Shown piece by piece: positions 2,757-17,557 of a DNA stretch of 51,345 nucleotides (positions within the stretch are counted from its first letter, which is position 1; each line of letters starts with the position of its first letter). Position numbers and translations under genes: made by a program. Below the pieces are notes generated by a model. The model worked only from the letters and a program-made list of their open reading frames with translations. It searched no databases and was not told the origin of the DNA. Origin of the DNA: Candidatus Gemmiger stercoravium (GTDB lineage: Bacteria > Bacillota > Clostridia > Oscillospirales > Ruminococcaceae); the NCBI GenBank assembly GCA_019119835.1, contig DWWE01000098.1, positions 1 to 51,345 of the forward strand, written 5' to 3'.

Positions 2757-2823
2757 GTTTCGCACCTCCCCCAGCCTGCGGCGCGGCCGTGGGTCGCGGC
2801 CGCCGCCTTGCGTTCTTTGCCCT

Positions 2824-2853: not shown

Positions 2854-2961
2854 GGGGCAGTGTGGGGAAAACGCATAGAAATCTCCGGTTCAATCTTGTG
2901 CAATTTCCACACAGGGCGGCGCAACCACCGCTCCAGCGCCCTTTTTGCCCCGCCGGCCGGG

Positions 2962-3156
2962 TCACTTTTTCGGGTCCTCCCGCCGGCTCTGGGTGCCGAA
3001 GTAGAAGGCCACCACCATGCTCACCACCGTCATGACGGTGTCGGGCTGCAGCGCGCCGGACAGCGCCAGCGCCGCAAACACCCCGATGACCACCAGCGTG
3101 ACGATGGTCTTGACCTTGATGAGGGCCGCCAGGCTGCGGATCAGTTCCTGCCACAT
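2962..3156 (-). CDS. Probable phage holin
   Basis: 64 residues with two hydrophobic segments (about 14-35 and 40-55) and a charged tail ending in RREDPKK, the size and layout of a small class II holin. It is the last gene of the late operon, next to the M23 endolysin and a second small membrane protein, which fits a lysis cassette. Holins form the membrane lesions that release or activate the endolysin. ATG at 3156 follows AAGGGGG at eight bases. No specific holin family is recognised by sequence; the call rests on topology and position. Confidence 0.65.
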   Translation of the reverse strand: MWQELIRSLAALIKVKTIVTLVVIGVFAALALSGALQPDTVMTVVSMVVAFYFGTQSRREDPKK

Positions 3157-3157
3157 C

Positions 3158-3436
3158 TCAATGTCCCCCTTCCAGCAATTTCAGTCTTGTCTCGTGTTCG
3201 CCCAGCTGCCGGTCCTGCTGTTCCACCCGGGCCCACAGCCGGCGGTGGCTGTCGGCGGCCTTGCCGGCCTGGGCTTCCAGGTCCCGCTCCAGGGCGTTGA
3301 GCCGGGCCTCCATGGCCTGCAGCAGGGTGTTCAGCCGGGTGATGCTGCCGTTGAGCCGCACCACCGGCCCGCCCACCGAGATCCCCAGCCCCACCAGCGT
3401 GACCAGCGCCGTGATGACCGTCCATTCCATCCTCAT
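3158..3436 (-). CDS. Small membrane protein with coiled coil (XhlA-like lysis accessory)
   Basis: 92 residues: an N-terminal hydrophobic helix (ITALVTLVGLGISVG, about 8-22), then a long heptad-rich helix to the end (LNTLLQAMEARLNALERDL and LGEHETRLKLLEGGH). This layout occurs in XhlA-type hemolysin/lysis proteins and related phage membrane proteins next to holins. The ATG at 3436 overlaps the endolysin stop in an ATGA arrangement; a second ATG at 3430 is equally well placed for the GGAGGAGG site. Function is inferred from context. Confidence 0.6.
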   Translation of the reverse strand: MRMEWTVITALVTLVGLGISVGGPVVRLNGSITRLNTLLQAMEARLNALERDLEAQAGKAADSHRRLWARVEQQDRQLGEHETRLKLLEGGH

Positions 3437-4056
3437 CCCTCCTCCACATAGGCGGCGGTATAGGGCACCCCCAGCCGCTGGGCCAGGTTCCAGAAGCTCA
3501 TGGCGTCGCCGTCGCTCACCGGGCCGATGCTCAGCCGCTGCAGCCGGGCCGGCGCCGGCGTGCCGGGGCGCCGCACGCTCTCGTAAACGCCCAGGTGGGC
3601 CTGCACCGCCGGGCTCGCACAGGAAAATTCCCCGTCCAGCCAGTTCAGCGGGTTGCAGCGCACCCCGGCCAGCAGCACCTCAAAGTGCAGGTGGGCGCCG
3701 GCGCAGTTGCCGGTCTGGCCGCTGTAGCCCAGCAGGTCCCCCTCCCGCACCAGCTGCCCCGCCTTGACGCAGGCCCGCGTCAGGTGGGCGTAGCGGGTCT
3801 GCAGCGGCTGGCCCCGGTAGTCGGCATGGCGCAGCCGCACCATGGTGCCGTAGCTCTGCATCCCGGTGCGGGTGTGCCCGTCCCAGGTCTGCAGCTGGTC
3901 CACCGTGCCCCCTTCCGCCGCATAGACCGGGGTGCCGGCCCCTGCCCGCAGGTCGATGGCGTTGTGGGCGCTGCCGTCGTTGTAGGTCCAGCCCGCCGTC
4001 AGAATGTGGGTGCTCAGCGGCCAGCGCAGCAGCACCTCCCCGCTTGTCAGTCTCAT
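3433..4056 (-). CDS. M23 (LytM) family peptidoglycan endopeptidase, phage endolysin
   Basis: 207 residues. The zinc ligands of the LytM fold are visible: HNAID (H31 and D35), a catalytic histidine in YAHLT (H91) and HLHFE (H122, H124). The domain occupies about residues 10-145 and is followed by a ~60-residue tail of unknown role. Such enzymes cut peptide cross-links of the cell wall. It has no signal peptide, so it would need the neighbouring holin for export. ATG at 4056 overlaps the previous stop by four bases (ATGA) with AAGGAGG upstream. It could instead be a tail-associated hydrolase, but its place beside the holin favours an endolysin. Confidence 0.85.
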   Translation of the reverse strand: MRLTSGEVLLRWPLSTHILTAGWTYNDGSAHNAIDLRAGAGTPVYAAEGGTVDQLQTWDGHTRTGMQSYGTMVRLRHADYRGQPLQTRYAHLTRACVKAGQLVREGDLLGYSGQTGNCAGAHLHFEVLLAGVRCNPLNWLDGEFSCASPAVQAHLGVYESVRRPGTPAPARLQRLSIGPVSDGDAMSFWNLAQRLGVPYTAAYVEEG

Positions 4057-5561
4057 ACGCTGCCTCCTTCGCTGTCGGCGCCGGCGGTGCGGCGCAGGAT
4101 GTAGGTCACCTTCATCGTCTTGTCGGCGGTCTTTTCCACCGGCTCGGCCAGGTCGTTGACGGTGGCCAGGTAGTTGGCCCGCACGCTCAGCACCACGCCG
4201 TCCGCCTTGTCGCCGTTGTCCCGGCAGGCCAGGCAGAGCAGCTGCCGGCCGCGGATCGGGTAGATCTTCAGGTAGTCGGCGCCGCTGCTGTACACCTCGG
4301 TGCGGCGCATGCGGTTTTTGGCGGTGTCCAGCACGGCGCCGTAGCTGCCGTCGCCCACCCCGGCGGCGGCGTAGCTGTACAGCCGGCCGGCGTAGGCGTC
4401 GTTCACATAGGTGAAGGGCAGGCCCGCGCAGTCGATCTCGGTCACGTCCCCGGCGTCGGTGAGGGGGATGCGGAAATACCGGTACTGGTCCCCGCTGCGC
4501 TGGTAGCTGCGCATGTACACCGCCCCGTCGTAGACAAAGCCGGCCAGCGGCCGGGCGGGGCGCAGGTTCATGCTCAGGGTGCTGCCCCGCAGCGACCCGG
4601 CGCCGCTGCCCGCCAGCGCCACGCCGGTCTGGTTGGTCAGGCTGTGTACCGTGACCTGCCGGGTGTCCAGGCTGACCGCCAGCACCTGGAAGGCCGCGTT
4701 GGCCGCCACCTGGGTGCCGCTGGTGTTGGTGATGTAGAGGGTACGGGTCTCGGGGCGGTAGTTCCAGCCCAGGAAGTAGGCGGTGCCGGCGCTGGCCTTG
4801 AGCAGCGGCTGCACCGTCACGGTCTGGCTGCGCTTGCAGGGGGGCTTGTTGGTCCCCCGCTGCCAGAACAGGTCCAGGCTGCGGGTGTAGGCGGGGTAGG
4901 CTTCCAGCGTCAGCTGCAGTGTGCCGTTGCTGCCGGCGGCGGGGCGGGCCAGCAGCAGCTCGTCCGCCTCCTCGTCCATCTCCAGCAGGTAGGGCAGGTC
5001 GGTCTCGGCGTCCAGGAAGGTGAGGAACCCCCGGCTGAGCTGCCCGCCGAAGGTCTCGCCGGCCTCGTAGGCATAGTGGTCGGCGCTGGCGTGGGTGTCC
5101 TCGCTGGCCAGCATCGCGCCGCCCCGGTGGGTCAGGCAGATGGAGGCCACCGTGCCGTTGGCCTGCTGGGTGCTGAAATCGTAGACGAAGGTCAGCTGGC
5201 CTTCGGCCGGGTCCAGCTGGCTTTCCACCGCGTTGAAGCTGCCCCGCACCCGGTTTTCGCCGGCGTTGGTCTGCCCGCAGGCCCCGCTGCCGGTGACCGC
5301 CGTGCCCGCCGGCAGCAGCAGGGCGTCCTCATCGGCGCCCACCGCCTTGTCCAGCAGCAGCACCCCGCCGCTGGCAAACAGCAGCGGGCTGTTGGCGTCC
5401 TCGCCGCCCTGGGGCTCCAGCATCCGGCTGTCGGTATACAGCCCGAAGGGGGTGAAGATCTCCTGCAGCGCGTCGGTGACGCGGTTTTTGTGTTCCCACA
5501 CCCGGGTCCGGCCGGTGTGGATGTCGGTCAGTTCGATCCGGGTTTGCCCCTGGATGCTCAT
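4053..5561 (-). CDS. Distal tail or receptor-binding-type structural protein
   Basis: 502 residues, no family recognised with certainty. The first ~60 residues (MSIQGQTRIELTDIHTGRT) resemble the N-terminal part of upper tail-fibre or baseplate proteins of Clostridia phages. The remainder is rich in beta strands, with repeated patterns such as TRTLYITNTSG and GAVYMRSYQRSGDQYRYFRI that suggest a beta-propeller-like region at about 240-470. The start at 5561 is preferred to the ATG at 5567, which sits one base after AGGAGG; 5561 has seven-base spacing. It lies between the tail hub protein and the endolysin, where host-recognition proteins normally are. Confidence 0.6.
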   Translation of the reverse strand: MSIQGQTRIELTDIHTGRTRVWEHKNRVTDALQEIFTPFGLYTDSRMLEPQGGEDANSPLLFASGGVLLLDKAVGADEDALLLPAGTAVTGSGACGQTNAGENRVRGSFNAVESQLDPAEGQLTFVYDFSTQQANGTVASICLTHRGGAMLASEDTHASADHYAYEAGETFGGQLSRGFLTFLDAETDLPYLLEMDEEADELLLARPAAGSNGTLQLTLEAYPAYTRSLDLFWQRGTNKPPCKRSQTVTVQPLLKASAGTAYFLGWNYRPETRTLYITNTSGTQVAANAAFQVLAVSLDTRQVTVHSLTNQTGVALAGSGAGSLRGSTLSMNLRPARPLAGFVYDGAVYMRSYQRSGDQYRYFRIPLTDAGDVTEIDCAGLPFTYVNDAYAGRLYSYAAAGVGDGSYGAVLDTAKNRMRRTEVYSSGADYLKIYPIRGRQLLCLACRDNGDKADGVVLSVRANYLATVNDLAEPVEKTADKTMKVTYILRRTAGADSEGGSV

Positions 5562-5563
5562 GG

Positions 5564-7438
5564 TCATACCTCCTCTTGTTGGATGGCGGGGCTCTCCGCC
5601 TGCAGGTCCTGCAGCACCAGCGCGGCGGGGGCCCAGGCGAGGGCCGGCAGGGTGTCCCGGCCGGCGGCCGAAGCCGGGGCGGCGGCGTGCAGGGCCGGCT
5701 GGTCCTGCAGCGGGCCGGCGGTCAGGGGCCGGCGCTGCCAGGCGGCCGGGCCAAGGGCGTCCTCGGCCTGGAGGGTGCCGTCCCACACCGGGCCGCCGGC
5801 CATGCCCTGGCCGGTGATGACCCCCCGCAGCCCGCCGGCCGCCAGCGTCACGGTGCCGCCGGTGACCGCCAGCCGCACTTCGAACCGGTTGGAGGTGTCG
5901 GCCTCCAGCTCGGTGAAGGGGTAGAACAGCGCCAGGATGCGCGGCCCCGCCGTCAGCCGCTGCACCGGGGCAAAGCCGGTCACCGGGCTGCCGTTGAGGT
6001 AGTACCGCACCTCCAGCAGCAGGGAGGGCGGCTCGGCCGGGGCAGCGCTTTCGCCCCCGTCCCCGGCATCCTCCCCGGCATCCTCCCCGGTGTCCTCCCC
6101 GGTCTGTCCGCCGGTGTCGGCCGGGGCGTCGGCGCCGCCGGTGTCCGGGTCCTCCGGTTCGGGGGCGTCGGGCTCGGCGTTGACCAGCAGCTGGGCGAAG
6201 AAGAGCGCCCCGGTTTTTTCCACCGTGACGAAGGTGACCCGGGCGGCCGTGACCTCCGCCCCCGGCCCGGCCGTGACGGCGGCGGGGTTGACGAAGCTGT
6301 AGAAGATCAGCCGGTTGTTCACCGTGTCGGTCTGCAGCTGCTGCAGGGCGGCGGCGCCCTTGTCCCGGGCGGCGGCCAGGTAGGGGTTTTTGCCCACCCC
6401 TTTCAGGGTGCTGCTGCCCCGGAACTTCCACACCCGGTGGGTGACGAGGGTCTGGGCCGATGTCTGGCCGGAGGCTTCCCCCGGCTCGGTGATGGTCAGC
6501 CGGTCGCCGCAGTCCAGCGCCGGGTCGGCCACGCCGGTCAGGCTGGCCGGCACATAGGGCAGGGTCTGCAGGTGGGCGAAGAGGGCGTCGGCCAGGGCCT
6601 GGGCCCGCTCGGCCAGCCCTTTGGCAAAGAGCGGCGCGTCGGTGATGGTCATGGTCAGGCCGCCGGCGTCGTCGGGGTCCCGGCTGACCAGCCGCCGCCC
6701 GCCGGTCTCCACCACCAGGGCGGTGTAGCGGCAGACATAGTCGGCCACCGCCGCGCCGGCCCGGTCGCCGGTGCCCAGCGTGGCGCAAGGTTGCGCCCCG
6801 AAGGGCCGCAGCACCAGCGCCCCGGCCCGGTCCACCGCGCCGAAGCAGCCGGTCACCTGGGCCACTGCGGCCAGGCAGTCCCGCCAGGTGGCGCAGCCGT
6901 CCTGGGTGTCCAGCTGGAAGGTCTCGGCGGCGTTGGGCTGGCCGGCCAGGTCGGCTTCGGTCACCCCCAGTTCCAGCCCGCAGTGCTCGGCGATCTGGCT
7001 GAGCATCCCGTAGGGGGTGCCCTGCAGGGCGGGGCCGGTGTAGTCCCGGTCCAGCAGGAGCAGGTTGTCGTAGGCGTGGATGGAGACGCAGAGGTTGGTG
7101 CGCTCGGCTTCGGCCACCGTGTACACCCCCAGCGGCAGGTCGGCCCAGCTGCCGTCGGGCAGCCGCAGGCCGTAGGTCAGGCTGACCCGGGCGCCGTACA
7201 GTTTGTAGCGGGACAGGTCGGTGCGCAGCTGGAAGGACGCCTGCCCCAGATAGACGCAGCCGAACTCCAGCTCCTGGCCGTTGACGCACTGGGTATCCAG
7301 CGTGACCGACCCGCTCATCAGCGATTCGGGGCCGAAGCTGCGCACCGTGCCGTCGGTGAGGGTCAGCGTGCCCCGGAGCCGCTCGGTGCGCACCGGCGCC
7401 CGGATGGCCTGTTGGTAGGCTTCGGTTACGGCGTACAA
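5564..7438 (-). CDS. Tail hub/baseplate (tail-associated) protein with acidic linker
   Basis: 624 residues. The N-terminal ~380 residues resemble gp27/tail-hub-like proteins of siphoviruses: an early GTLTLTDGTVRSF strand set, GSVTLDTQCVNGQELEFG, LPLGVYTVAEAERT, then GKNPYLAAARDKG. An Asp/Glu/Gly/Thr linker lies at about 445-480, encoded by a 12-base tandem repeat, followed by a beta-rich C-terminal domain (about 485-600). The start is TTG at 7438: AAAGGGG lies nine bases upstream, and the nearby ATG at 7442 is in another frame that stops at once. Position after the tape measure and the 115-residue tail protein supports a baseplate role. Confidence 0.65.
   Translation of the reverse strand: MYAVTEAYQQAIRAPVRTERLRGTLTLTDGTVRSFGPESLMSGSVTLDTQCVNGQELEFGCVYLGQASFQLRTDLSRYKLYGARVSLTYGLRLPDGSWADLPLGVYTVAEAERTNLCVSIHAYDNLLLLDRDYTGPALQGTPYGMLSQIAEHCGLELGVTEADLAGQPNAAETFQLDTQDGCATWRDCLAAVAQVTGCFGAVDRAGALVLRPFGAQPCATLGTGDRAGAAVADYVCRYTALVVETGGRRLVSRDPDDAGGLTMTITDAPLFAKGLAERAQALADALFAHLQTLPYVPASLTGVADPALDCGDRLTITEPGEASGQTSAQTLVTHRVWKFRGSSTLKGVGKNPYLAAARDKGAAALQQLQTDTVNNRLIFYSFVNPAAVTAGPGAEVTAARVTFVTVEKTGALFFAQLLVNAEPDAPEPEDPDTGGADAPADTGGQTGEDTGEDAGEDAGDGGESAAPAEPPSLLLEVRYYLNGSPVTGFAPVQRLTAGPRILALFYPFTELEADTSNRFEVRLAVTGGTVTLAAGGLRGVITGQGMAGGPVWDGTLQAEDALGPAAWQRRPLTAGPLQDQPALHAAAPASAAGRDTLPALAWAPAALVLQDLQAESPAIQQEEV
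6061..6104 (+). repeat. 12-base tandem repeat encoding an acidic linker
   Basis: About 3.5 copies of CCCCGGCATCCT/CCCCGGTGTCCT on the plus strand. On the coding (minus) strand they give GEDTGEDAGEDAGDG. Copy-number change would alter the linker by four residues per unit and keep the frame. Confidence 0.85.
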
Positions 7439-7467
7439 GACATGACACCCCTTTCCGGTAAGTTGGT

Positions 7468-7492
7468 CCCCCGCCCCTCCGGGCGGCGGGGG
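7468..7492 (-). other. Strong intercistronic hairpin in the tail operon
   Basis: CCCCCGCC and GGCGGGGG form an eight-pair stem with a nine-base loop in the ~70-base gap between the 115-residue tail protein and the TTG-start hub gene. There is no T-run, so it is not a terminator. It could influence mRNA stability or the access of ribosomes to the next gene. Confidence 0.6.
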
Positions 7493-7507
7493 CGCGGCGG
7501 GCGGTTG

Positions 7508-7855
7508 CTAAAACTCCACAAGGTCCAGCGTCACCTCCCACACGGCCTGGCCTTCGCGGGCGGCGATGAGGTCGGCGGTGCGGGTGCCGGCGTACATCTG
7601 GGCGGTGCGGGCGGTGCCGAAAAAGTATTCCACCGTGAACCGGTCGGCGGCGGTGGCGTTGAGGATGGCCGCGCACTGGTCGGTGGAAAGGGCCTGCCAG
7701 GCGGCCGAGATCTTGGCCACGCCGCCCCGCACCCGGGCGCGCACCAGCACGCCGTCCTCGGTGCGGCCGGTGTCGGCGCTGTCCAGGTCGGACAGGCTGA
7801 CCTTGTAGCTGTGGGGCGCCGGCATCTCGACGCCGCCGATCTTGAGAATGGTCAT
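7508..7855 (-). CDS. Phage tail protein, DUF6711-like
   Basis: 115 residues, beginning MTILKIGGVEMPAPHSYKV. Short proteins of this size and opening (hydrophobic strand, GV-x-MP-x-P-x-x-Y) lie directly after the tape measure gene in many Clostridia siphoviruses, where they are taken as distal-tail components. ATG at 7855 follows the tape measure stop without a gap (TGA-ATG), with GGAGGAAG upstream, so the two are translationally coupled. The family name is my best recollection; the tail role rests mainly on position. Confidence 0.6.
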   Translation of the reverse strand: MTILKIGGVEMPAPHSYKVSLSDLDSADTGRTEDGVLVRARVRGGVAKISAAWQALSTDQCAAILNATAADRFTVEYFFGTARTAQMYAGTRTADLIAAREGQAVWEVTLDLVEF

Positions 7856-9694
7856 TCATCTTCCTCCGCTGCGCAGCATCCGGCGGCTCTGGCTGGACGC
7901 GATGACGCTGTCCAGCAGTTCCTCGCCCAGATAGATGTTGATGGTCTGGTCCTGGCCGGCAAAACCGGCCAGCGTCTCGGCAAAAGCCTGGCGCAGCGTG
8001 TCCAGCGGGGCTTCGATGTTGGTGCCCTGCGGCTGGTCCCCCAGCAGCGCCAGGAAGGCCCGGTTGGGCGGGATCACCGCGCCGGCGGCCAGGGCGGGCA
8101 GCCGCGGGGGGCTGGCCAGGGCGGGCACGGCGGCGTAGGGCACAGCGGCGCTGCGGCCGGTCTTGTAGACCCGCCCCAGGCCGGACGCCCCCCGCCCCAG
8201 GCCGCTGAGCGCCTGCCAGGCGTTGGCCACCGCGTCGGCGATGCCCCTGGCAAAGTTGGCGATCAGCGTCTGCAGGCCCTGGATGGCCCCGCGCACCGTG
8301 TCGGTGATGGTGCGCCAGGCCGCGGCGGCCGAGTCGGTCATCGCCTGCCAGCCGGCGGTCCAGTTGCCCAGCAGCCCCTGGGTCAGGAAGTCTGCCAGCC
8401 CCCGCAGCAGCTGCAGCAGGCTGGTCAGCAGCCCGGCGGCGGTCTGCACGGCCAGCCGCACCGCTTCGGCCAGGGTGGAAAAGACCTGGGCCGCCACCGG
8501 CCCGAAGCTGGCCGCCAGGAAGTTGAGCAGCGGCGCCAGCAGGGTGTTCCAGAAGGTCAGCAGCAGGTTCATCACCGAGCCCATGGCCAGGGTCAGGGCG
8601 TCGAACAGCGGCTGCAGCGCGGTGTTCCACAGCTGGCTCAGCTGGGTGATGAGCGCCTGCAGCACCGGCTGCACGGTGCCGGTCCACAGCGTCATGAAGA
8701 TGGTGCAGAGGTTCTGCACCGCCTGCGCCGCGCCGGCCAGGATCGGCTGGCCGTAGGCGGTCCAGGCGGCCTGGATGGAACCCATCGCCCCCTGCCACAT
8801 CTGCAGCGCCAGGGCCAGCAGCGGGCCCAGGACGTTGTTCACCGCATCGCTGACCAGCGTCGCCAGGGTGGTGAAAAGGGTGCCCAGCTGGGTGACGGCG
8901 GTGGCCGCCGCCCCGCCCAGGATGGGCGCGAACGCCTGGGACAGGCTGTTCCACACCCCGGGCAGAAAGGTTCCGCCCAGGTAGGCGGCCAGCGGGGCCA
9001 GGGCGTTCTGCCACAGCCCCAGGGCCGCAGCCTGCACCGGGCCCCACACCGCCAGGGCGGCGGCCTGCAGCTGGGCCCAGGCGGCCCGCCAGGCTTGGAT
9101 GGCCGGGGCGTACAGCGCCTGCACCTGCTGCCAGAAAGCCTGCACCGCCCCCAGCGCCGCCGCCAGCGCCCCGGGCAGCCCGCCGGGGGCCGCGCTGCCG
9201 CCCGGCCGGCCGGGTCCCGCCCCGCCGCTGCCGCTGCCCGTCCCGCCGGCATCCGGCAGGGCGGTGTCGGCGGCGTCGGCCGCCGCCAGCCGCTCGATCT
9301 CGTCAAAGCCGGCCAGGCTGCGCGCCGCCTTGTCGGCGGCGCGGGCGGTGGTCTTGGCCGCCCGGCCCACCTGCTCCACCGCCCGGGACGCAGCCTGGGC
9401 GGCCGGGGCGGTCCGGCCGCCCAGCAGGGCGGCCAGCCGGTCGGTGCCGTCGGCGGCGCCCCGCACCAGCGTTCCCAGGGCGCCCAGCGCCGGGTTCAGC
9501 GCGGTCTGCAGCGGCCGGGCGGCCGCCTGCACCGTGGCGGGCAGGCTTTGCAGCACCCCCCCGGCCCGGGCCCCGCCGGCGGCCGCGGCGTTCAGGCCGT
9601 CCGCCAGCGCCTGCAGGGCCTGCCCCAGCGCCCGGGCCTGCCGCCCGGTCTCGGCCGGCAGGGATTCCTGTTCAAACTGTAGTGTTCTGGCCAA
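7856..9694 (-). CDS. Tail tape measure protein (short)
   Basis: 612 residues. Sets tail length and serves as the assembly scaffold. It is Ala/Leu/Gln-rich with long helices, a SLAGFDEIERL motif near 125 that is common in tape measures of this group, a Gly-rich hinge (about 150-175), a run of W- and Q-rich helices, a hydrophobic region, and a C-terminal ALLGDQPQGTNIEAPLDTL motif typical of siphovirus tape measures. Start is TTG at 9694 (MARTLQFEQE), overlapping the previous gene by 23 bases, with AAGGGG upstream. At ~0.15 nm per residue it would specify a tail near 90 nm, short for the type. Confidence 0.85.
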   Translation of the reverse strand: MARTLQFEQESLPAETGRQARALGQALQALADGLNAAAAGGARAGGVLQSLPATVQAAARPLQTALNPALGALGTLVRGAADGTDRLAALLGGRTAPAAQAASRAVEQVGRAAKTTARAADKAARSLAGFDEIERLAAADAADTALPDAGGTGSGSGGAGPGRPGGSAAPGGLPGALAAALGAVQAFWQQVQALYAPAIQAWRAAWAQLQAAALAVWGPVQAAALGLWQNALAPLAAYLGGTFLPGVWNSLSQAFAPILGGAAATAVTQLGTLFTTLATLVSDAVNNVLGPLLALALQMWQGAMGSIQAAWTAYGQPILAGAAQAVQNLCTIFMTLWTGTVQPVLQALITQLSQLWNTALQPLFDALTLAMGSVMNLLLTFWNTLLAPLLNFLAASFGPVAAQVFSTLAEAVRLAVQTAAGLLTSLLQLLRGLADFLTQGLLGNWTAGWQAMTDSAAAAWRTITDTVRGAIQGLQTLIANFARGIADAVANAWQALSGLGRGASGLGRVYKTGRSAAVPYAAVPALASPPRLPALAAGAVIPPNRAFLALLGDQPQGTNIEAPLDTLRQAFAETLAGFAGQDQTINIYLGEELLDSVIASSQSRRMLRSGGR

Positions 9695-10756: not shown

Positions 10757-10807
10757 TCGGCACACTCCTTTCCTTGTTCTTCCCGCCCACCCGCCCGGCG
10801 CCGGCCC

Positions 10808-11284
10808 TCAGGCCGGGGTAAAGGTCTTGGTATCCACCGCGAAGGTGCCCTTGGTTTTGACGCCGGTGTAGTGGACGTTGAAGGGGATCTGGTAGCCGGT
10901 GGTGTCGCCGCCGTAGCTGACGATCTCGATGTAGCATTCCTCCTTCACGGCCGGGTAGGCGCCGGAGCTTTCCTCGCCCCAGAGCTTGACCTCCACGATG
11001 TCGGTCTTCAGGTCGTCCAGCACCAGGTCCCCGTCCAGGATGGCCTGGAGCTTTTCAAACAGCGGGTCGTCCTCCACGGCATAGTAGGGGGTCACCTCGC
11101 CCTGCTTCTGGTAGCCGTCGATGACCACCGAGGTCTGGCCCAGAATGTTCTGCTTCTTTTCCACATTGGCGGTCATTTCGGGGGAATACTCCTCCAGGTC
11201 GCTGCCCAGGCGGCAGTAGCTGTCCGGCTCGGTGCCGAAGGCCGCGTTGAGGTAGTGGGCCATGTATTTGCGTTCGATCTTCAA
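10808..11284 (-). CDS. Major tail tube protein
   Basis: 158 residues, beginning MKIERKYMAHYLNAAFG. The pattern LNAAFG...YCRLGSDLEEYSPEMTANVEKKQNILGQ, followed by repeated beta strands ending GTFAVDTKTFTPA, is that of tail tube proteins of Clostridia siphoviruses. The start is TTG at 11284 with AGGAGG seven bases upstream; no ATG is as well placed. It is followed by the chaperone gene, as usual. Codon choice is slightly less extreme than in its neighbours, consistent with an abundant structural protein. Confidence 0.85.
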   Translation of the reverse strand: MKIERKYMAHYLNAAFGTEPDSYCRLGSDLEEYSPEMTANVEKKQNILGQTSVVIDGYQKQGEVTPYYAVEDDPLFEKLQAILDGDLVLDDLKTDIVEVKLWGEESSGAYPAVKEECYIEIVSYGGDTTGYQIPFNVHYTGVKTKGTFAVDTKTFTPA

Positions 11285-11307
11285 AACGGTTCCTCCTTTG
11301 GTTGGGG

Positions 11308-11748
11308 TCAGCACAGCTGGCGGGTGTACTCGGCGGTCAGGGTCACGGCGTAGGTGGCGGTGCCCTCGTCGCCGGTCTTTTCCAGCCCGCCGGCGGCGGT
11401 CAGGGTCTCGGCGGCCGGGTCGGCGTTGCCGAAGTGGGGGGCCAGGCCGGCGGCGCTCTGGGCGGCGGTCCAGTCGGCCAGGGCTTCCAGCCGGCGGGCG
11501 TTGGCCGGCGCGCCGGCCGTGCCGTGGGGCAGCACCAGCCGCAGGGTCCAGCGGGCGCGGCAGCGGGCGAACCGCTGCCCCAGCAGGTTTTCCCGCCGGG
11601 CGGTCACCCCGCTGCCCGCCGGGAACAGCCCGGCGCAGCCCGGCACCGCCGGCAGGTCGTCCACCCACAGCGCCCGCAGGTCGGCCAGCGCCGGCGCGGT
11701 GCGCAGCCAGGCGGCCAGCGCCTCGGTCATCGTCTCGTTGGGGTCCAT
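11308..11748 (-). CDS. Tail completion/terminator-type connector protein
   Basis: 146 residues. Begins MDPNETMTEALAAWLRTAP and continues with LVLPHGTAGAPANARRLEALADWTAAQ and ATYAVTLTAEYTRQLC. Size, opening helix and place between the head-closure protein and tail tube fit the tail-completion protein that caps the tail tube and docks it to the head. No motif identifies it alone, so the call rests on gene order. ATG at 11748 has GGAGGAAACC upstream. Confidence 0.6.
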   Translation of the reverse strand: MDPNETMTEALAAWLRTAPALADLRALWVDDLPAVPGCAGLFPAGSGVTARRENLLGQRFARCRARWTLRLVLPHGTAGAPANARRLEALADWTAAQSAAGLAPHFGNADPAAETLTAAGGLEKTGDEGTATYAVTLTAEYTRQLC

Positions 11749-11758
11749 GGTTTCCTCC

Positions 11759-12172
11759 TCAGTTGGTCAGGCTGTGGGCGCCGCTGCCGCTGCGGGTCCA
11801 CCAGCCGCCCGCTTCCAGGTGGCAGGGCGAACCCTGCCAGTCCTTGGGGTCCACATACTGCACGCAGCACAGCCCCGGCACCAGGGCGGGCACAAAGGCG
11901 TCCCAGTCCGCCCAGGCCACGGCCTGCCCCTCGCCGGGCAGCACCCGGTCGCCGGGGGCCAGGGTGTAGTCGGCGTCCCGCCGGGCGCTGCGCTCGGGGA
12001 TGATGAGCAGGAAGGCCGACGCCCGGTTCTGCCCCTGCTCGGTGTGGACCATCCGGACCCGCCGGTCCAGGAAGGCCCCCCGCACCACCGTGCGGGTGAC
12101 GGTGCCGGCGTCCGGGTCGGGGTGGTAGAGGGTGACAGTCTGGCGGCACAGCGGGTATCCGGGCTCAGCCAT
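11759..12172 (-). CDS. Head closure-type connector protein
   Basis: 137 residues. Beta-rich: LCRQTVTLYHPDPDAGTV, then TRTVVRGAFLDRRVRMV, then YTLAPGDRVLPGEG. This pattern resembles small neck proteins (DUF6751-like) of Clostridia phages that close the head channel after packaging. The ATG at 12172 overlaps the upstream stop by eight bases, with GGGGGG seven bases before it. Role inferred from order (adaptor, closure, tail completion). Confidence 0.55.
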   Translation of the reverse strand: MAEPGYPLCRQTVTLYHPDPDAGTVTRTVVRGAFLDRRVRMVHTEQGQNRASAFLLIIPERSARRDADYTLAPGDRVLPGEGQAVAWADWDAFVPALVPGLCCVQYVDPKDWQGSPCHLEAGGWWTRSGSGAHSLTN

Positions 12173-12530
12173 GGCGCACCCCCCGGTAGATCTGCAGGAA
12201 GTCCTGGGCCAGCTGGCGGTAGTAGACTTCCCGCAGGTAGAGGGTGGTGGGGCAGAGCTCGGGCGGGGCCACATAGGTCTCGCTGACGCTGCCCACGCTG
12301 GCCGCGGCATAGCCCCGGCGGGCGTCCTCCTGGTCAAACTCGTACATCGCGTCGGCGATGGCGCACAGGGCGTTGTCCTCGGCGTCGGGCACGCCGGGGC
12401 GCGGGGTCATGGCGTAGAGCTGGCGCAGCCGCCCCAGCTTGACCCCGGCCCGCCGGGCATACCGGGGGAATTCCGCCTCGGGGATGTCCTCGCCCAGGTA
12501 GCTGTCGGTATAAAAGGTGTAGTCCGGCAA
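12165..12530 (-). CDS. Head-tail connector (adaptor, Gp6-like)
   Basis: 121 residues, mainly helical: YTFYTDSYLGEDIPEAEFPRYARRAGVKL, a middle helix ALCAIADAMYEFDQEDARRG, then VYYRQLAQDFLQIYRGVRHG. This matches head-tail adaptor proteins encoded after the major capsid gene. The start is TTG at 12530: AAAGGAGG lies nine bases upstream, while longer upstream frames give arginine/proline nonsense. It directly follows the capsid gene with a 22-base gap. Confidence 0.75.
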   Translation of the reverse strand: MPDYTFYTDSYLGEDIPEAEFPRYARRAGVKLGRLRQLYAMTPRPGVPDAEDNALCAIADAMYEFDQEDARRGYAAASVGSVSETYVAPPELCPTTLYLREVYYRQLAQDFLQIYRGVRHG

Positions 12531-12552
12531 GGTAGCGTGCCTCCTTTTGGCG

Positions 12553-13455
12553 TTACGCCTTGAACTTGGCCAGCACCACCTTGGCTTCGTTGGACAGCAC
12601 CGCCACATAGAACTCGTCGGCGGTGATCTCGGTGGTGCGGATCTTGGGTTTGCGCTCGGTCTCCACATTGACCTCCCGCTTGCGGTAGATGGTCAGCGCC
12701 GGGACCTCGTCCTCGGTCTCGGGGTCGCCTTCCAGCTTGACGATGGGGCAGGCGTAGCACTCCACGCCGGGGGTGCCGGGTTCGCCCTCCTCACCCCCCT
12801 CGGTGCCGCCCACCTCCACCAGCGGGACCTTTTTGCTGGGCACGATGCGGCAGCCCGCGATCATGCCCACCTCGCCGGTGAGCATCAGCCCGGCCTGGTA
12901 CTTGTCGGCGCTGAGGAAGTCCGCGTCTTTGCGCAGGGCGGTGAGCTGCTTGGGGTGGATGAACAGCACCTTGTCGCAGCCCTGTTCCTCCTCAAACAGG
13001 TCCAGCGCTTCGACGATGCCGTTGTAGCTGATGGCGCCGGCGCTGCCGTCATAGCTCAGGGTGGCGGTCTGCAGCGCGTCCATGCAGTCGTTGTCGATCT
13101 TGGCCGCGATGGCCATGGCCAGCTGGGTGTTGGCCTCCCCCACCGGGTTGCCGTAGCCGGACAGCACCGCTTCGTCGGTGAGGCTGACGCCCTTCATGGC
13201 CTTTTTGACGGTGGCCTTGCGGGTGGAGGTGGTCATCTTTTCGATGGTCACCTCCTCCCCTTCGGCCACGTCGGCGGCGTCGCCGATGTAGGCGTAGGCC
13301 GGCACCGTGATGGTGTCGCCGGGCACGCCGGCCAGGGTGTCGTCCACCTTGGCGAAGGGGGCGACCCGCAGCTTTTTGGGGATGCGGGCCGAAACCATGT
13401 CCCCCATCACTTCGGGGTCAATGAGGTTTGCGAGCTTGGTGGTCATGTCTGCCAT
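12553..13455 (-). CDS. Major capsid protein, HK97 fold (N4-gp56-like)
   Basis: 300 residues. N-terminal MADMTTKLANLIDPEVMGDMVSA, then VPAYAYIGDAADVAEGEE and KMTTSTRKATVKKAMKGVSLTDEA, which is the E-loop/P-domain region of N4-gp56-type HK97-fold capsid proteins. A Gly/Glu-rich insertion (about 218-235, GGTEGGEEGEPGTPG) falls in the A-domain. It has no visible delta-domain, and no scaffold of normal size is encoded, so assembly may depend on a very short helper. ATG at 13455 has GAGGAGA upstream. A secure call for the capsid role. Confidence 0.88.
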   Translation of the reverse strand: MADMTTKLANLIDPEVMGDMVSARIPKKLRVAPFAKVDDTLAGVPGDTITVPAYAYIGDAADVAEGEEVTIEKMTTSTRKATVKKAMKGVSLTDEAVLSGYGNPVGEANTQLAMAIAAKIDNDCMDALQTATLSYDGSAGAISYNGIVEALDLFEEEQGCDKVLFIHPKQLTALRKDADFLSADKYQAGLMLTGEVGMIAGCRIVPSKKVPLVEVGGTEGGEEGEPGTPGVECYACPIVKLEGDPETEDEVPALTIYRKREVNVETERKPKIRTTEITADEFYVAVLSNEAKVVLAKFKA

Positions 13456-13499
13456 AGTCTTCTCCTCTCTGCTGGGTCAGTTCCGGGCAGGGCCCGGGC

Positions 13500-13673
13500 T
13501 CATCTGTCGCTGCGCAGCCGCGCATAGGTCTCGGGGTCGCTGTGTTTCAGCGCCAGCCGTTCCCGGTAGCTCATCCGGGCCAGGGCCTGGGGGTCGGGGG
13601 TCAGCGGTGCGGTGCCGGTGCCGGCGGCGTAGGGGGCCGGCCGGGCGGCGTCAGGGCTGTTGGGCTTGTCCAT
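13500..13673 (-). CDS. 57-residue protein between portal and capsid
   Basis: Pro/Ala-rich N-terminal half and a C-terminal helix MSYRERLALKHSDPETYARL that resembles the C-terminal end of phage scaffolding proteins. Scaffold genes normally lie here but are 150-200 residues long. It could be a relic or minimal scaffold, or an unrelated small head protein. ATG at 13673 is chosen from three nearby starts because AGGAGG is eight bases upstream. It overlaps the portal gene by 23 bases. Confidence 0.6.
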   Translation of the reverse strand: MDKPNSPDAARPAPYAAGTGTAPLTPDPQALARMSYRERLALKHSDPETYARLRSDR

Positions 13674-15024
13674 CCTCATCACCTCCTTTCGCGGCGGGCA
13701 TCCAGCGCCGGCGCACAGCGGCCAGGTCCGCCTCGGTCTCGTGGGGCAGGCCGAAGTACCAGGCCAGGGCCAGCTCGGGGCGCAGCAGGCCGTCCGCCAC
13801 CATCTGGCGGTATTCCTGCCAGGCGGCGGCCCGGTCGTACAGCAGCCCGTCGCCCCAGTCCAGGTTCAGCGCCGCGGCGGGGTCGAAGGGTTCGGCCCCG
13901 CACAGGCCGTAGGCCCGGCCCAGCGCGTCGCACAGCGCCAGCGCCTGGCAGACCGCCTGCCGCCACATCTGCTGGAAATCGCCGACGGTCAGGACGGCGT
14001 CGGCGCCGGTGGCGGTGATCTCGGTGGCGGTGCGCTCGGCGGTCTCGGCTTCGCAGAGGGTGCCGCGGCGCAGCCCGATCAGGCTTTCACACCCCCGCAG
14101 GATGTCCTGCTTGCGGGCCAGGTAGCTCTGTTCCCGCAGGGCCGGGCTGTACACCGTCACCCCCAGGTTGGCCGGGTCTTCGGGCAGGCCGACAAACAGG
14201 TCGTCGGTGAGCGCCCGGTCCCCCGGCCCCTCGCCCCGCAGAAGATCCTCCGAGGCAAACACCCGGGACGCGCCGTTCTCAAACTCCCGGGAAAGGCCGT
14301 GTTCGGTGCGGCCCAGCCGGTGCAGCAGCCCGGCCGCCGGGGCGAACACCGCCACCGGGTCGGGGCTGCCGTCCACGCAGTTGGCCATCGGGGTGCGCAG
14401 CACGGCCAGCCCCACCCCCGAAACGCCGGGCAGCAGCAGGGTGGGGCGCAGAGCCTCGGTCTCGGGCAGGGTGTCCAGCGGCACCTCCCGGCCCAGCGTC
14501 TCGCCGGCCAGTTCGAACAGCCGGGTCTCGATGGTCAGGCCCTTCTCCCCGGCGGTGCGGCGCTCCAGCAGCGCATACCGGCGCCCGCCGCGGCTGATCC
14601 GCTGCATGGTGCCCACCGCCTGCAGCCGCCCCTGCAGGTCCCGCCCCAGCGGCAGGAAGTGGTCCCGCCGCACCGGCACGAACTCAAACCCCGCGCCGGC
14701 CGGCACCGGTTTGAGCAGGCATTCGCCCCCCACCAGCGCGGCCTGCATGGCCCGGCCGCGCACCGCGTCCAGCGCCCGCAGGTTGCCGGTCATCCAGTCG
14801 GTCTTGGCCCCGCCGGGGCGCAGGCGGCTCTCGTACTCGGCAAAGACCGCCCGGCACAGCTTGCTGACGATGAGCACCGGCAGCCGGTCGGCGGGGTCCT
14901 CGCCGGGGAAGGCACGGCCGAAATAAAGGTCGAACCACTCCCGGATGGCCGCCTGCATCCGCGGGCTTGTCACGTCCCGCCGGCCGAACGCCCGGCCGAA
15001 GGCATGTTCCAGTTCTGTTTTCAT
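13651..15024 (-). CDS. Phage portal protein (SPP1 Gp6-like)
   Basis: 457 residues. The dodecameric ring at one capsid vertex through which DNA is packaged. Features include MQAAIREWFDLYFG and LCRAVFAEYESRLRP at the N-terminus, LVGGECLLKPV near 96-106 in the wing, and QSYLARKQDILRGCESLIGLRRG with ERTATEITATGADAVLTVGDFQQMW in the stem and crown. All follow the SPP1-type portal pattern. ATG at 15024 has AGGAGGGAAGC upstream, so the longer open frame to 15285 is not used. Intact frame, normal length. Confidence 0.9.
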   Translation of the reverse strand: MKTELEHAFGRAFGRRDVTSPRMQAAIREWFDLYFGRAFPGEDPADRLPVLIVSKLCRAVFAEYESRLRPGGAKTDWMTGNLRALDAVRGRAMQAALVGGECLLKPVPAGAGFEFVPVRRDHFLPLGRDLQGRLQAVGTMQRISRGGRRYALLERRTAGEKGLTIETRLFELAGETLGREVPLDTLPETEALRPTLLLPGVSGVGLAVLRTPMANCVDGSPDPVAVFAPAAGLLHRLGRTEHGLSREFENGASRVFASEDLLRGEGPGDRALTDDLFVGLPEDPANLGVTVYSPALREQSYLARKQDILRGCESLIGLRRGTLCEAETAERTATEITATGADAVLTVGDFQQMWRQAVCQALALCDALGRAYGLCGAEPFDPAAALNLDWGDGLLYDRAAAWQEYRQMVADGLLRPELALAWYFGLPHETEADLAAVRRRWMPAAKGGDEDGQAQQP

Positions 15025-15089
15025 GCTTCCCTCCTGAATCACGCGGCGCATACGCCGCAGACGGTTGTAAAATCCGGCCCGGTCCCCGG

Positions 15090-16334
15090 CTACTGCCCCC
15101 GCCGCCGCCAGACGCTTTCCACCGCATACCGCACGGCGTCGATGTGGTGGTTGTCCACATCCGGGTAGCCGGGCAGCACCTCGCCGGTGCGGGGGTCGCG
15201 GGCATACTCGTAGGCGGCAAACTCGGCGGCGGTGTCGGGGCAGCGGGCCGGGTCGATGCAGATGGCCGCCAGGCTCTGCAGCCACTTCATGCTCTGGTTC
15301 AGGCTGCCGGGGCCCTTGTGGGCGGCGCGGCAGGCCAGGCCGGTGGCCCGGTAGTCGGCGCAGCTCTTGGGTTCGGCCGAGTCGGCGGTCAGCAGCCCGC
15401 CGGTGCGCAGACTCTCCCCCACCCCCCGGTCCAGCAGCAGCCGGGCGGTATCCCGGTTGGGGGTGCGGCGGCGGGTCAGCTCGTCCAGCACCACCAGGGT
15501 GCGGCGGGCCGGGTCGTAGGCCACCGCGTTGTAGGCCCAGGGGTCGGGGTACCAGCCCCAGTCCACCCCGTGGTACACCCGCTCCGGGGCGGGCAGGGCG
15601 GCGGCGTCCAGCGGTTCCAGCCGCAGGTTGTCAAACACCGCGGCGCCGCTGCCCACCACTTCGCCCAGGTACTCGTGGCGGTAGGCCAGCGGGTTGACCT
15701 GCCGCAGGTGGTCGGCGTCGGCCAGGAAGCGGGGCCCCAGCCAGTCGGCCGGCAGGTCCCGGTAGGTGGCGTGGACCACCCGCTTGCCGGCCCGGGGCTG
15801 CAGCACATACCGGTTGACCCAGCTGCGCCCCATGGCCGGCGGGTTGAAGCTCTTGAAGGCCAGGGCGTAGTCGCCGCCCCGGAACAGGCTCTGCTCCACG
15901 CTGCGCACCTCCTCGGGGCCGTCGAACTGGTCCAGCTCCTCGAACCAGCACAGCCCGATGGTCCCGAAGGGCGCCCGGATGCTCTTGAGCTTGCCCGCGT
16001 CGTCCAGCCCGAAGAACTGGATCTTCTGGCCGGTGGGCAGGTAGGTACATTCCATCGGGCTGACGGTGCAGCGGAATTTGCGCCCCAGCCCCAGCGCCCC
16101 GATGGCCCAGCAGATCTGCGGGTAGACGCTGGTGCGCAGCGTGGCCCCCACCTTGCGCAGCACCACGGCGTGGACGCCCGGGTGGCGCAGCAGCTGCAGA
16201 ACCAGTTCCAGCGAAAGATAGCTGGACTTGCCCGACCCGCGCCCGCCCTTGGCCACCAGTTCCTGCACGGCGCCCCGCCGGATGTCGGCGTGGGCGTCCC
16301 AGAACACCGGGGCGATAAGCTCTTTCAATCGCAC
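15090..16334 (-). CDS. terL: Terminase large subunit, PBSX type
   Basis: 414 residues. ATPase-nuclease that drives DNA into the prohead and cuts it. Walker A GGRGSGKSS at 30-38, Walker B IGLCWFEELDQF near 128-139, and nuclease acidic motifs GVDWGWYPDP, LLTADSAEP and DNHHIDAVRYA. All key residues are present. Normal for the PBSX/XtmB family (about 400-430). The start is GTG at 16334; its ribosome site is poor (GGGGG about 16 bases away), but a stop lies in frame upstream, so little room exists for another start. It follows the small terminase by 39 bases. Confidence 0.93.
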   Translation of the reverse strand: MRLKELIAPVFWDAHADIRRGAVQELVAKGGRGSGKSSYLSLELVLQLLRHPGVHAVVLRKVGATLRTSVYPQICWAIGALGLGRKFRCTVSPMECTYLPTGQKIQFFGLDDAGKLKSIRAPFGTIGLCWFEELDQFDGPEEVRSVEQSLFRGGDYALAFKSFNPPAMGRSWVNRYVLQPRAGKRVVHATYRDLPADWLGPRFLADADHLRQVNPLAYRHEYLGEVVGSGAAVFDNLRLEPLDAAALPAPERVYHGVDWGWYPDPWAYNAVAYDPARRTLVVLDELTRRRTPNRDTARLLLDRGVGESLRTGGLLTADSAEPKSCADYRATGLACRAAHKGPGSLNQSMKWLQSLAAICIDPARCPDTAAEFAAYEYARDPRTGEVLPGYPDVDNHHIDAVRYAVESVWRRRGQ

Positions 16335-16373
16335 TTCGATCGCAGCAGCACCCCCTTTGCAATCAGCATCGGT

Positions 16374-16601
16374 TCACGGTTCGCCCGGCCGGGCGGGGGG
16401 CTGCCCGGCCACCTCGTCCACGATCACCACCCCCTCCTCGGCGCCGGCGCCTTCGCCCATGCCCAGGTATTTGTAGATCAGTTCCAGCGCCCGCAGCTTG
16501 TCCCCCGCCTTCACCGGCAGGTCGGCCTGCCGCAGATCGGCAAAGGCGATGTCCGCCAGTTCGTTCAGCACCCGCCGGGGGGTGATGGATCGTCTGCGCA
16601 C
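16374..16601 (-). CDS. terS: Terminase small subunit, shortened: no DNA-binding domain
   Basis: 75 residues. The whole protein matches only the C-terminal part of Terminase_2/XtmA small subunits: ITPRRVLNELADIAFAD, then VKAGDKLRALELIYKYLGM, then an acidic tail. The N-terminal helix-turn-helix, about 80 residues that recognise the packaging site, is missing. The GTG start at 16601 has a perfect AAAGGAGG five bases upstream and no open frame extends before it, so this is the natural start and not a frameshift. Normal family members are 130-180 residues. The product could still help TerL but should not choose a specific DNA site. Confidence 0.75.
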   Translation of the reverse strand: MRRRSITPRRVLNELADIAFADLRQADLPVKAGDKLRALELIYKYLGMGEGAGAEEGVVIVDEVAGQPPARPGEP

Positions 16602-16664
16602 GGGACCTCCTTTCTGTCCGGCGGGGCAGGCGTCGCGCCTTTACTCCCCGCCCCCGCAGTTTTA

Positions 16665-16679
16665 ACAACCTTTGGTTGT
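16665..16679 (-). promoter_or_regulatory. Operator copy 2: ACAACC-N3-GGTTGT
   Basis: Perfect 6+6 inverted repeat with a three-base spacer (TTT). It lies at about +10 to +24 relative to the start predicted from the -10 at 16696-16701, upstream of terS. An identical palindrome occurs at 17540-17554 inside another promoter. Confidence 0.72.
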
Positions 16680-16695
16680 ATCTTGCGACAAAAAA

Positions 16696-16725
16696 AGAAT
16701 ACCACACCCGCCCCCGAAACTGCAA
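16696..16725 (-). promoter_or_regulatory. Candidate promoter of the terS-to-holin operon
   Basis: TTGCAG-N18-TATTCT on the minus strand with a TGG extension to the -10. It lies between the terminator of the regulator gene and terS. The -35 is weak, so an activator may be needed. Inferred from sequence. Confidence 0.5.
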
Positions 16726-16801
16726 CGAAGACTTCCCGAAAACTTTCCGAAATCTTTTTTGCAGCCCGCCGGGGGCAGGAAACGCCCCGCCGCGCCCAAA
16801 C

Positions 16802-16826
16802 AAAAACGCCCCCGCCATGCGGGGGT
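16802..16826 (-). terminator. Terminator after the phage regulator gene
   Basis: GCCCCCGC-type hairpin (CCCCCGC, CAT loop, GCGGGGG on the minus strand) followed by TTTTT. It lies ~100 bases after the stop at 16926 and separates the regulator gene from the structural operon. Confidence 0.85.
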
Positions 16827-16925
16827 GCGGGCAGTATGGGGGCGGCCGGCGCGAGTTTTGCCGGAAGCAGACCACCCGCCGGGGCGCACCGTCAGGGGCG
16901 GCGCACAGGCACAAGCAGGCCCGGC

Positions 16926-17369
16926 TCAGGGGGTCGCGGCGTGTTCCCGGGCGCCCTTGGCGCCCCGGGCGGCCCGCTGCAGGTCCAGCGCCCGCAGGGC
17001 GGCGGTCTGCATCTGCTCCACCCGGCGGACCACCACCCCCATCTCGTCGGCGGCCTGCTGCACCGTCTGCCCCTGCAGGAAGCGGCGCAGCAGCACCTCC
17101 CGCTGCCGCTCGTCATCCAGCCGGCTCACCGCCCACACCAGCTGGCGGCGCAGCGTCAGGCAGCGGGCGGCCTGGGCGTCCAGCTGCTTGCAGGCGGCCT
17201 GCAGCTGGGTGCGCACCTGCCGCAGCCCCGGCGAGTTCCGGGTGCCCAGCGTCCGGGCCACCCGCTCGGCCTCGGCGCGCAGCGCCTCCACCTCCCGGCA
17301 GAGCATCTGCTGCCGGGCGGCTTCCCGCCGGTAGCGGCCCAGCCATTCCGTCTTTTCACGGTTCGTCAC
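16926..17369 (-). CDS. Phage late regulator, sigma-70 region-4-like (DUF1492/RinA type)
   Basis: 147 residues. The N-terminal half is a charged coiled coil (about 8-75) with heptads. The C-terminal half has VWAVSRLDDERQREVLLRRFLQGQTVQQAADEMGVVVRRVEQMQTAAL, a sigma-70 region-4-like helix-turn-helix with the usual D-x-x-x-R-E-V-L-x-x-R-F entry. Such genes lie just upstream of terminase genes in many Clostridia and Staphylococcus phages and activate late transcription. GTG at 17369 has GGAGG eight bases upstream. It is a single-gene unit with its own promoter, operator and terminator. Confidence 0.8.
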   Translation of the reverse strand: MTNREKTEWLGRYRREAARQQMLCREVEALRAEAERVARTLGTRNSPGLRQVRTQLQAACKQLDAQAARCLTLRRQLVWAVSRLDDERQREVLLRRFLQGQTVQQAADEMGVVVRRVEQMQTAALRALDLQRAARGAKGAREHAATP

Positions 17370-17528
17370 ATTGCATCCCTCCTGTACACAGGGCGCCCGG
17401 CCCCGCCGCGGCTCCGAACCCCGGCCCCGCCGGCCGGTCAGGCCGCCGGCTCCCTCCGGCCGGCCCGGTCCCGCCGCAGCCGGTCAGGCCGGGCGCCCTC
17501 CTCTCGGTCATTTCCTCCCTGCATTGTC

Positions 17529-17557
17529 AGCATAGCATTACAACCATAGGTTGTCAA
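17529..17557 (-). promoter_or_regulatory. Promoter of the phage regulator gene
   Basis: TTGACA-N17-TATGCT on the minus strand: perfect -35, 4 of 6 at -10, ideal spacing. The 17-base spacer and the end of the -35 contain the palindrome ACAACC-N3-GGTTGT, a typical layout for repression by a phage-type repressor. Confidence 0.82.
17540..17554 (-). promoter_or_regulatory. Operator copy 1: ACAACC-N3-GGTTGT
   Basis: Perfect inverted repeat with spacer ATA, lying between the -35 and -10 boxes of the regulator promoter and overlapping the last bases of the -35. Bound protein would block RNA polymerase. The same arms recur at 16665-16679. No candidate repressor gene is in the window. Confidence 0.78.

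Follow-up and report, generated by a model that had tools for sequence, protein, structure and literature searches.

Few gene transfer agent (GTA) loci are known outside the Alphaproteobacteria. The GTA of Rhodobacter capsulatus (RcGTA) and its relatives are inherited vertically, have no integrase and are encoded at dispersed loci. The PBSX particle of Bacillus subtilis is induced by the SOS response. In the gut, Faecalibacterium carries FpGTA I and II, which Borodovich et al. (2026; PMC12946183) presented as the first GTA found in the human gut microbiome; the same study reported stool particles containing 8.4–8.9 kb of Gemmiger and Faecalibacterium DNA. According to the available sections of their article, a metagenome-assembled genome (MAG) of Gemmiger formicilis was named as a possible GTA, packaging of random host DNA by Gemmiger virus-like particles was tied to no locus, and clustering did not find operons homologous to FpGTA in the Gemmiger/Subdoligranulum genomes examined, ATCC 27749 included (PMC12946183). 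In the open-licence literature, with bioRxiv outside the scope, we found no published account of a Gemmiger GTA locus of this type. Here we describe a phage-derived gene block on the 51,345-bp contig DWWE01000098.1 of Candidatus Gemmiger stercoravium (the window). The view that this block is domesticated and controlled by the host is strongly supported by sequence, and it probably derives from a siphovirus and works as a long-tailed GTA under host SOS control.

The window is a contig of a 2.36-Mb, 120-contig Gemmiger MAG (gut Oscillospirales). Between host genes it carries a siphovirus head, tail and lysis late region of 14,408 bp, wholly on the minus strand, whose genes run from 17369 to 2962. 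The initial annotation had described 2962–17557 as a late-only block with intact frames. This minus-strand block was confirmed; the −35 box begins at 17557, and the last small gene ends at 2962. Gene identities were obtained by family searches (Pfam, PHROGs), for the tail tube by its fold and for some genes by position. The control, packaging and head features are the following.

17529–17557, minus strand: block promoter, with −35 TTGACA (17557–17552), a 17-bp spacer and −10 TATGCT (17534–17529); read from the sequence
17540–17554, no strand: SOS-type operator 1, ACAACC-TAT-GGTTGT, within the promoter; recurs in 24/24 genomes
16926–17369, minus strand: late transcription regulator (sigL) of sigma-70 region 4 / phrog_36 type; Pfam Sigma70_r4 1.2e-8, phrog_36 8e-8
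16665–16679, no strand: SOS-type operator 2, ACAACC-AAA-GGTTGT, upstream of TerS; recurs in 15/24 genomes
16374–16601, minus strand: TerS, small terminase without the N-terminal DNA-binding half; matches a C-terminal stretch of Terminase_2 only (111–130 of 141)
15090–16334, minus strand: TerL, large terminase; Terminase_3 5.9e-34, Terminase_3C 8e-12
13651–15024, minus strand: portal protein, probable start; phrog_533 3.3e-53
13500–13673, minus strand: p57, a scaffold remnant corresponding to the C-terminal ~45–55 residues of relatives' scaffolds; resembles the end of the L369 scaffold
12553–13455, minus strand: major capsid protein of TP901-1 type; phrog_544 1.7e-83, 39% to TP901-1 MHP

An open reading frame (ORF) of 183 aa at 16363–16914 was discarded, and the 75-aa TerS nested within it was retained.

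Neither an integrase nor a repressor or replication gene turned up among the block and the flanking ORFs scanned (window to ~30.7 kb), with serine recombinases sought only among the Pfam-scanned proteins. The longest direct repeat between the flanks (1501–3150 versus 17301–19000) measured 14 bp, an ordinary length compared with the 11–18 bp of random window pairs, and the earlier statement that the flanks share no att repeats therefore stands. Tyrosine integrases gave 180 matches in total in 12 genomes. Among the matches listed, the nearest lies ~40 kb from the block end in G034 (51 kb from its capsid gene), and the others are at least 57 kb away or on different contigs. Thus, the features of a complete temperate prophage (integrase, repressor, replication genes, att sites) were not found; phage-type head, tail and packaging genes stand without integration or replication genes, as in a GTA. 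The initial annotation had also listed a lytic switch among the missing early functions. Here it needs correction, since the late regulator (16926–17369) together with the SOS-type operator means that a switch exists. The base composition, formerly called host-like, is so only roughly (71.6% G+C in the block versus 67.1% in the rest of the window).

The operator recurs across the genomes with the block. The motif ACAAC-N5-GTTGT was present at most 250 bp upstream of the late regulator in 24/24 genomes, the background rate being 0.086 per 250 bp (≤2 mismatches). The promoter layout TTGACAAC...GTTGT was found in 23/24 genomes, the exception being G028, and TTG-ACAAC-N5-GTTGT, in which the box overlaps the −35 box, in 23/24. 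The exact box also stood upstream of recA in 29/29 loci with enough sequence, and upstream of a gene for an XRE-S24 regulator in 29/29 loci (≤1 mismatch; 26 exact). For recA, ParE and the regulator 30 loci each were inspected, from 32, 34 and 35 matching genomes, respectively; one recA and one regulator locus were too short. The box was absent from 52.8 kb of coding control, and in the window's genome a box with one mismatch also precedes rmuC. Since the block promoter, recA and the XRE-S24 regulator share it, the box looks like the SOS box of the genus. The regulator combines HTH_3 and Peptidase_S24 domains, with an Ala-Gly pair and a serine in what we take to be the usual places for its motifs, and was detected in 35/35 genomes (E ≤ 0.001; weak in G029, partial in G024). 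It appears to be the LexA of Gemmiger, and the block appears to belong to the SOS regulon of the genus, run by a host gene that is present also in genomes without the block. At the level of sequence the block thus carries the signs of host-controlled expression, a trait that characterizes a GTA. At one regulator gene (L227:7506–8132; G000:C29:15505–16128) at least five operator copies lie upstream, 82–107 bp apart.

The block is widespread in Gemmiger. TerL of the window's type (type A) was found in 25/35 genomes and any TerL match in 27/35, G006 and G016 having the TerL of a type-B prophage alone. The capsid gene was likewise found in 25/35, and TerL type A and/or the capsid gene in 26/35 genomes, each classed as a separate species; G001 lacks TerL and G003 the capsid gene, and both are incomplete MAGs. 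The TerL frames from 25 genomes were intact (408–414 codons), as were 23 capsid frames, the capsid extraction having omitted G011 (two pieces) and G022 (contig edge). Fourteen block genes were checked and each was recovered in 21–25 of the 26 genomes, the late regulator in 24; most absences fall at contig ends. Broken structural genes, which the initial annotation had regarded as evidence against its proposal, amounted to a single frame change, in the G011 capsid gene at an assembly run of three N, besides two MAGs with internal gaps. Twelve gene copies had been flagged as possibly interrupted; more than one open frame matched only for the G011 capsid.

TerL had a median dN/dS (Nei-Gojobori) of 0.22 and a maximum of 0.41 over 300 pairs, and the capsid gene a median of 0.215 and a maximum of 0.48 over 252 pairs. 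Both genes are thus under purifying selection, which bears out the earlier proposal that the genes are kept by selection and are not decaying at random. The median was 0.08 for ParE and the XRE-S24 regulator. Pairwise protein distances of TerL and of the capsid protein followed those of ParE (r 0.87, n = 23, and r 0.79, n = 22, respectively; 0/5000 permutations each). In a host tree of 34 genomes built from the ParE and regulator genes, with G006 left out, the eight genomes without the block all lie to the same side of a single branch (support 73/91, recovered in 69% of bootstrap trees). Host groups reappear in the TerL tree (G000+G018+G033, G004+G025, G007+G014+G015, G029+G030 and a seven-genome group with a split terminase), several of them strongly supported; deeper positions of that tree (G013, G019, G028, G029+G030) conflict with the host tree or lack resolution. 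Type-B TerL shared 97–98.5% nucleotide identity among G008, G017 and G020, where ParE shared 91–92% and type-A TerL 89–91%. This excess similarity is the pattern expected of a moving prophage, and type A is free of it.

The chromosomal place is stable as well. Ten upstream ORFs were scanned in the window; nine are of host type (cls, two ABC exporter parts, FdtA, DegT, UppS, BioY, SpoU and an aldose epimerase) and one gave no match. Downstream follow a carrier-protein gene and an RNase Y gene cut by the contig end. The initial annotation had proposed a search of related genomes for the same block at this locus. cls lay upstream of the block in 20/24 viewable blocks, 18 in the same direction and two reversed (G029, G030), and no complete prophage, which the initial annotation would have taken as refuting its proposal, was seen at the cls site in the loci read. 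Seven of the cls-adjacent blocks have a moved or unseen terminase, and some have one or two intervening ORFs. cls was not seen within the view for G028 (11.5 kb), G025 (8 kb), G004 (3.5 kb) and G019 (3.2 kb). Vertical inheritance, a stable chromosomal location and purifying selection are characteristic of GTAs, and the block shows all three; the comparison of genomes indicates that its genes descend with the host in Gemmiger and stay intact. G. formicilis ATCC 27749 (L032) carries the block, flanked at one end by transketolase and cls and at the other by PilT and PilB. The latter two are type IV pilus genes immediately beyond the block (L165:5564–9089); a link of this neighbourhood to DNA uptake would be speculative.

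The packaging genes deviate from those of related phages. In the relatives L046, L048 and L369, TerS has 162–164 aa and matches Terminase_2 over nearly its full length (E 2e-25 to 4e-24); in the three block TerS scanned, only later parts of that profile match. A profile built from residues 1–75 of the TerS of L046, L048 and L369 was found in 0/24 blocks (E < 0.01, all forward frames, from 800 bp upstream through TerS), and the profile of the remainder matched TerS in 24/24. The block therefore appears to have a small terminase without a specific DNA-binding domain, and the available part of PMC6854486 gives lack of the N-terminal DNA-binding domain as a mark of GTAs. Short TerS proteins (79, 73 and 115 aa) with no obvious helix-turn-helix also accompany related TerL in L054, L058 and L059 from other Oscillospirales; these are possibly further GTA-like loci.

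In nine genomes (G002, G003, G004, G009, G022, G025, G026, G027, G034) TerS-TerL lies apart from the other block genes. In eight of these a reversed neighbour with an M23-like match comes next; the G004 sequence ends earlier. Regulator, portal, capsid and tail genes are still together elsewhere in 7/9 split genomes and in G001 (TerL not found); in G022 the contig stops after the capsid gene, and for G003 the capsid locus was not found. In the single-contig genomes G027 and G034, distances of 236 and 664 kb, respectively, separate TerL and the capsid gene. With this layout the block cannot package and move itself as a phage, although both parts are kept. An operator precedes TerS in 9/9 split versus 6/15 unsplit genomes (≤2 mismatches; Fisher p 0.007); apparently, a terminase standing alone keeps its own box.

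The scaffold is likewise reduced. The relatives' scaffolds have 155–235 aa; Phage_scaffold matches those of L046 (E 1e-37) and L369 (E 8e-32), and Phage_min_cap2 occurs in L046 too. The end piece of these scaffolds resembles p57, which is 54% identical over 41 aa (E 8e-8) to the terminal part of the L369 scaffold and itself gave no match in Pfam and PHROG searches. From the portal match to the capsid start there are only 187–552 bp in 24/24 block copies, with just a short conserved piece; in several copies the p57 open frame extends upstream into the portal gene. Such a stub may make the head small.

The TerL-related prophage loci L042, L046, L053 and L369 share 64–69% with the window in TerL, 28–49% in the portal and 58–63% in the tail tube where detected. 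Unlike the block, L042 (a type-B locus) retains primase, helicase and SSB genes, L046 and L369 have a full TerS and a full scaffold, and L046 also has a minor capsid protein. The late block of L369, which comes from a different genus of the same family (G054), is syntenic (66% in TerL, 67% in the capsid) and retains TerS and the scaffold at full length; this stretch showed no SOS box, and no integrase was recognised by eye in ~7 kb upstream. In the genus g93 (L370–L376) every one of the six genomes whose capsid matched that of the window (~38%) had a TerL match as well (~44%), the two usually 2–5 kb apart.

The remaining genes of the block encode the head-tail junction, tail and lysis proteins.

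12165–12548, minus strand: head-tail adaptor, approximate start; phrog_541 1.4e-10
11759–12172, minus strand: probable head-tail joining protein, from its position; weak phrog_3366, in 24/26 genomes
11308–11748, minus strand: tail completion protein; phrog_3266 1.6e-4
10808–11287, minus strand: major tail (tube) protein; AlphaFold2 model (pLDDT 81.6) and Foldseek
10289–10765, minus strand: phrog_11299 protein (9.7e-23, PHROGs function unknown), putative tail assembly from its position
9672–10292, minus strand: Gp15-like protein, putative tail assembly; Phage_Gp15 2.2e-9
7856–9679, minus strand: tape measure protein; phrog_1535 6.3e-27
7508–7855, minus strand: putative distal tail-type protein, 115 aa; DUF6711 2.9e-7, phrog_1194 4e-25
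5564–7438, minus strand: tail protein, probably tail tip; phrog_6616 tail protein 2.8e-24
4053–5560, minus strand: putative fibre-like protein, ~500 aa, approximate start; phrog_19291 1.1e-29, unknown function
3433–4056, minus strand: M23 peptidase (endolysin or tail lysin); Peptidase_M23 4.8e-23
3158–3436, minus strand: XhlA-like coiled-coil membrane protein; XhlA 0.34 (weak), phrog_1009 2.1e-7
2962–3156, minus strand: putative holin, 64 aa; phrog_13256 2e-14, function unknown

The Foldseek matches of the tail-tube model were chains of the NF5 baseplate and tail tube, the 80alpha baseplate and the SPP1 tail tube. The fibre-like protein was undetected in many relatives, and the holin and XhlA-like labels (2962–3436) are weak assignments from size and weak matches. 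A single 1664-aa gene at 4053–9047 was rejected as mostly a false extension; third-position G+C, PHROG matches and the relatives divide this region into several genes in another frame.

Taken as a GTA, the block could function as follows. DNA damage would lead RecA to trigger self-cleavage of the XRE-S24 repressor, upon which the late regulator and the structural genes would be transcribed. The scaffold stub would give a capsid smaller than that of the ancestor, TerS-TerL would fill it from random chromosomal DNA, the long tail would be joined and cell lysis would release the particles. On balance we further favour the view that the block represents a second gut Firmicutes GTA line, long-tailed and SOS-induced, and the source of the 8.4–8.9 kb Gemmiger stool particles. 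On this same view it would have arisen from a Terminase_3 siphophage in which TerS lost its DNA-binding half, the scaffold was cut down to the tail that binds the capsid, the minor capsid protein disappeared and the host SOS promoter was adopted; in one group the terminase would also have moved to a separate site, which would keep the particle genes from travelling together.

Several observations weigh against this interpretation. The block is known here from its genes alone, with no particle, packaged DNA or transfer observed, and the published Gemmiger particles have no protein or genetic link to it. It is absent from 9/35 genomes, and its dN/dS is ~2.7-fold that of ParE. Two MAGs have gaps inside a contig: in G033 portal and p57 are missing from the stretch that separates TerL and the capsid gene, and G013 gave no match from the phrog_11299 gene to the fibre-like gene (tail tube to M23). 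In G028 (L021, L140/L141) the order is permuted to TerL, tail end, XhlA-like, portal, capsid and, further on, the tail-gene start. The exact box precedes ParE in only 21/30 loci, and the TerS operator is missing from nine of the 15 unsplit genomes. Genome-wide counts of the box show no excess over a reversed-pattern control: with one mismatch, the window's genome has 15 copies of the control pattern versus nine of the box, and ten relatives have counts close to control. The case for the operator therefore rests on its position and its recurrence before the same genes, not on counts. Type-B TerL, used as a control, also tracks the host (r 0.76 versus 0.90 for type A, 28 pairs); correlation alone is thus not the argument for descent. 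In addition, according to the available text of PMC7296036, removal of the candidate scaffold of RcGTA left the head shape unchanged, for which reason the head-size step is weakly grounded.

A PBSX-like particle would also be domesticated and SOS-induced and would package host DNA, killing related cells rather than delivering genes. PBSX, too, is a late-only cluster under SOS control, and a killing range would fit the variability of the tail and lysis genes between species: median identity to the window is 38% for the 115-aa tail protein versus 81% for the capsid, and the later tail and lysis genes are likewise far more variable. However, a pure killer should need no terminase. TerS has lost its DNA-binding half and TerS-TerL is kept at its own operator-bearing site in all nine split genomes, which suggests that packaging itself is under selection. 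Sequence alone does not separate the two; from the packaging genes a GTA is likely, and we regard the killer as improbable.

A late-only satellite or helper-dependent phage moving as a unit could draw on the related type-B prophages present in some of the same genomes, which might provide functions in trans. Such a cryptic mobile element is very unlikely in view of the recurrent cls locus, the terminase moved off the structural genes, the failure to see an att repeat or a nearby integrase among the matches listed, and the contrast with type-B TerL of G008, G017 and G020, which alone shows the pattern of a moving phage. Still less credible is a prophage that has lost its early genes and is disappearing. 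The gaps in G033 and G013 and the permuted order in G028 would agree with decay; it is contradicted by purifying selection on TerL and capsid, by intact frames (TerL 25/25, capsid all 23 extracted of 25), by co-descent with the host and a conserved operator, and by conservation in 26 genomes classed as separate species. The original suggestion of a domesticated GTA-like or PBSX-like particle gains support, with truncated TerS, split terminase and SOS-type operator as additional features of GTA type.

If the GTA interpretation is true, the block gives a gene set to Gemmiger DNA packaging already measured in people, places a GTA in a species whose type strain is culturable and testable, and ties gut DNA transfer to DNA damage. 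The edits described here (TerS without its DNA-binding half, scaffold stub, displaced terminase) can be searched for in other genomes, which would reveal GTAs otherwise taken for incomplete prophages.

Among known systems, PBSX is a Gram-positive defective prophage that packages DNA without injecting it, according to the available sections of PMC12946183; the Gemmiger block differs from it by the reduced TerS and scaffold and by the split terminase in one group. RcGTA resembles the block, as far as the accessible parts of the respective articles describe it, in a TerS without an N-terminal DNA-binding domain (PMC6854486) and in an SOS link via LexA (PMC6473078), and it has a small head and a tail (PMC7296036). 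It differs in being alphaproteobacterial, and R. capsulatus LexA acts via cckA (PMC6473078) in contrast to the XRE-S24 repressor of Gemmiger. In Dinoroseobacter shibae the GTA cluster itself has predicted, putative LexA sites (PMC6473078), so that a GTA promoter with an SOS box would not be unique to Gemmiger. FpGTA, compared by description from the available sections of PMC12946183, resembles the block in that its host is a neighbouring member of the gut Ruminococcaceae, it consists of late genes only, it occupies two loci and its TerS is without an obvious DNA-binding domain. Unlike the Gemmiger block with its tail-tube fold and tape measure gene, it is described as podovirus-like, without a long-tail gene set, and it differs from the arrangement at cls, in which only TerS-TerL is split off in one group. 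The head of the block is known from genes alone, and its 14,408 bp compare with 8.4–8.9 kb in the published Gemmiger particles; if its particles hold that much, the 14.4-kb block cannot fit. The block is a candidate for the missing genes behind these particles.

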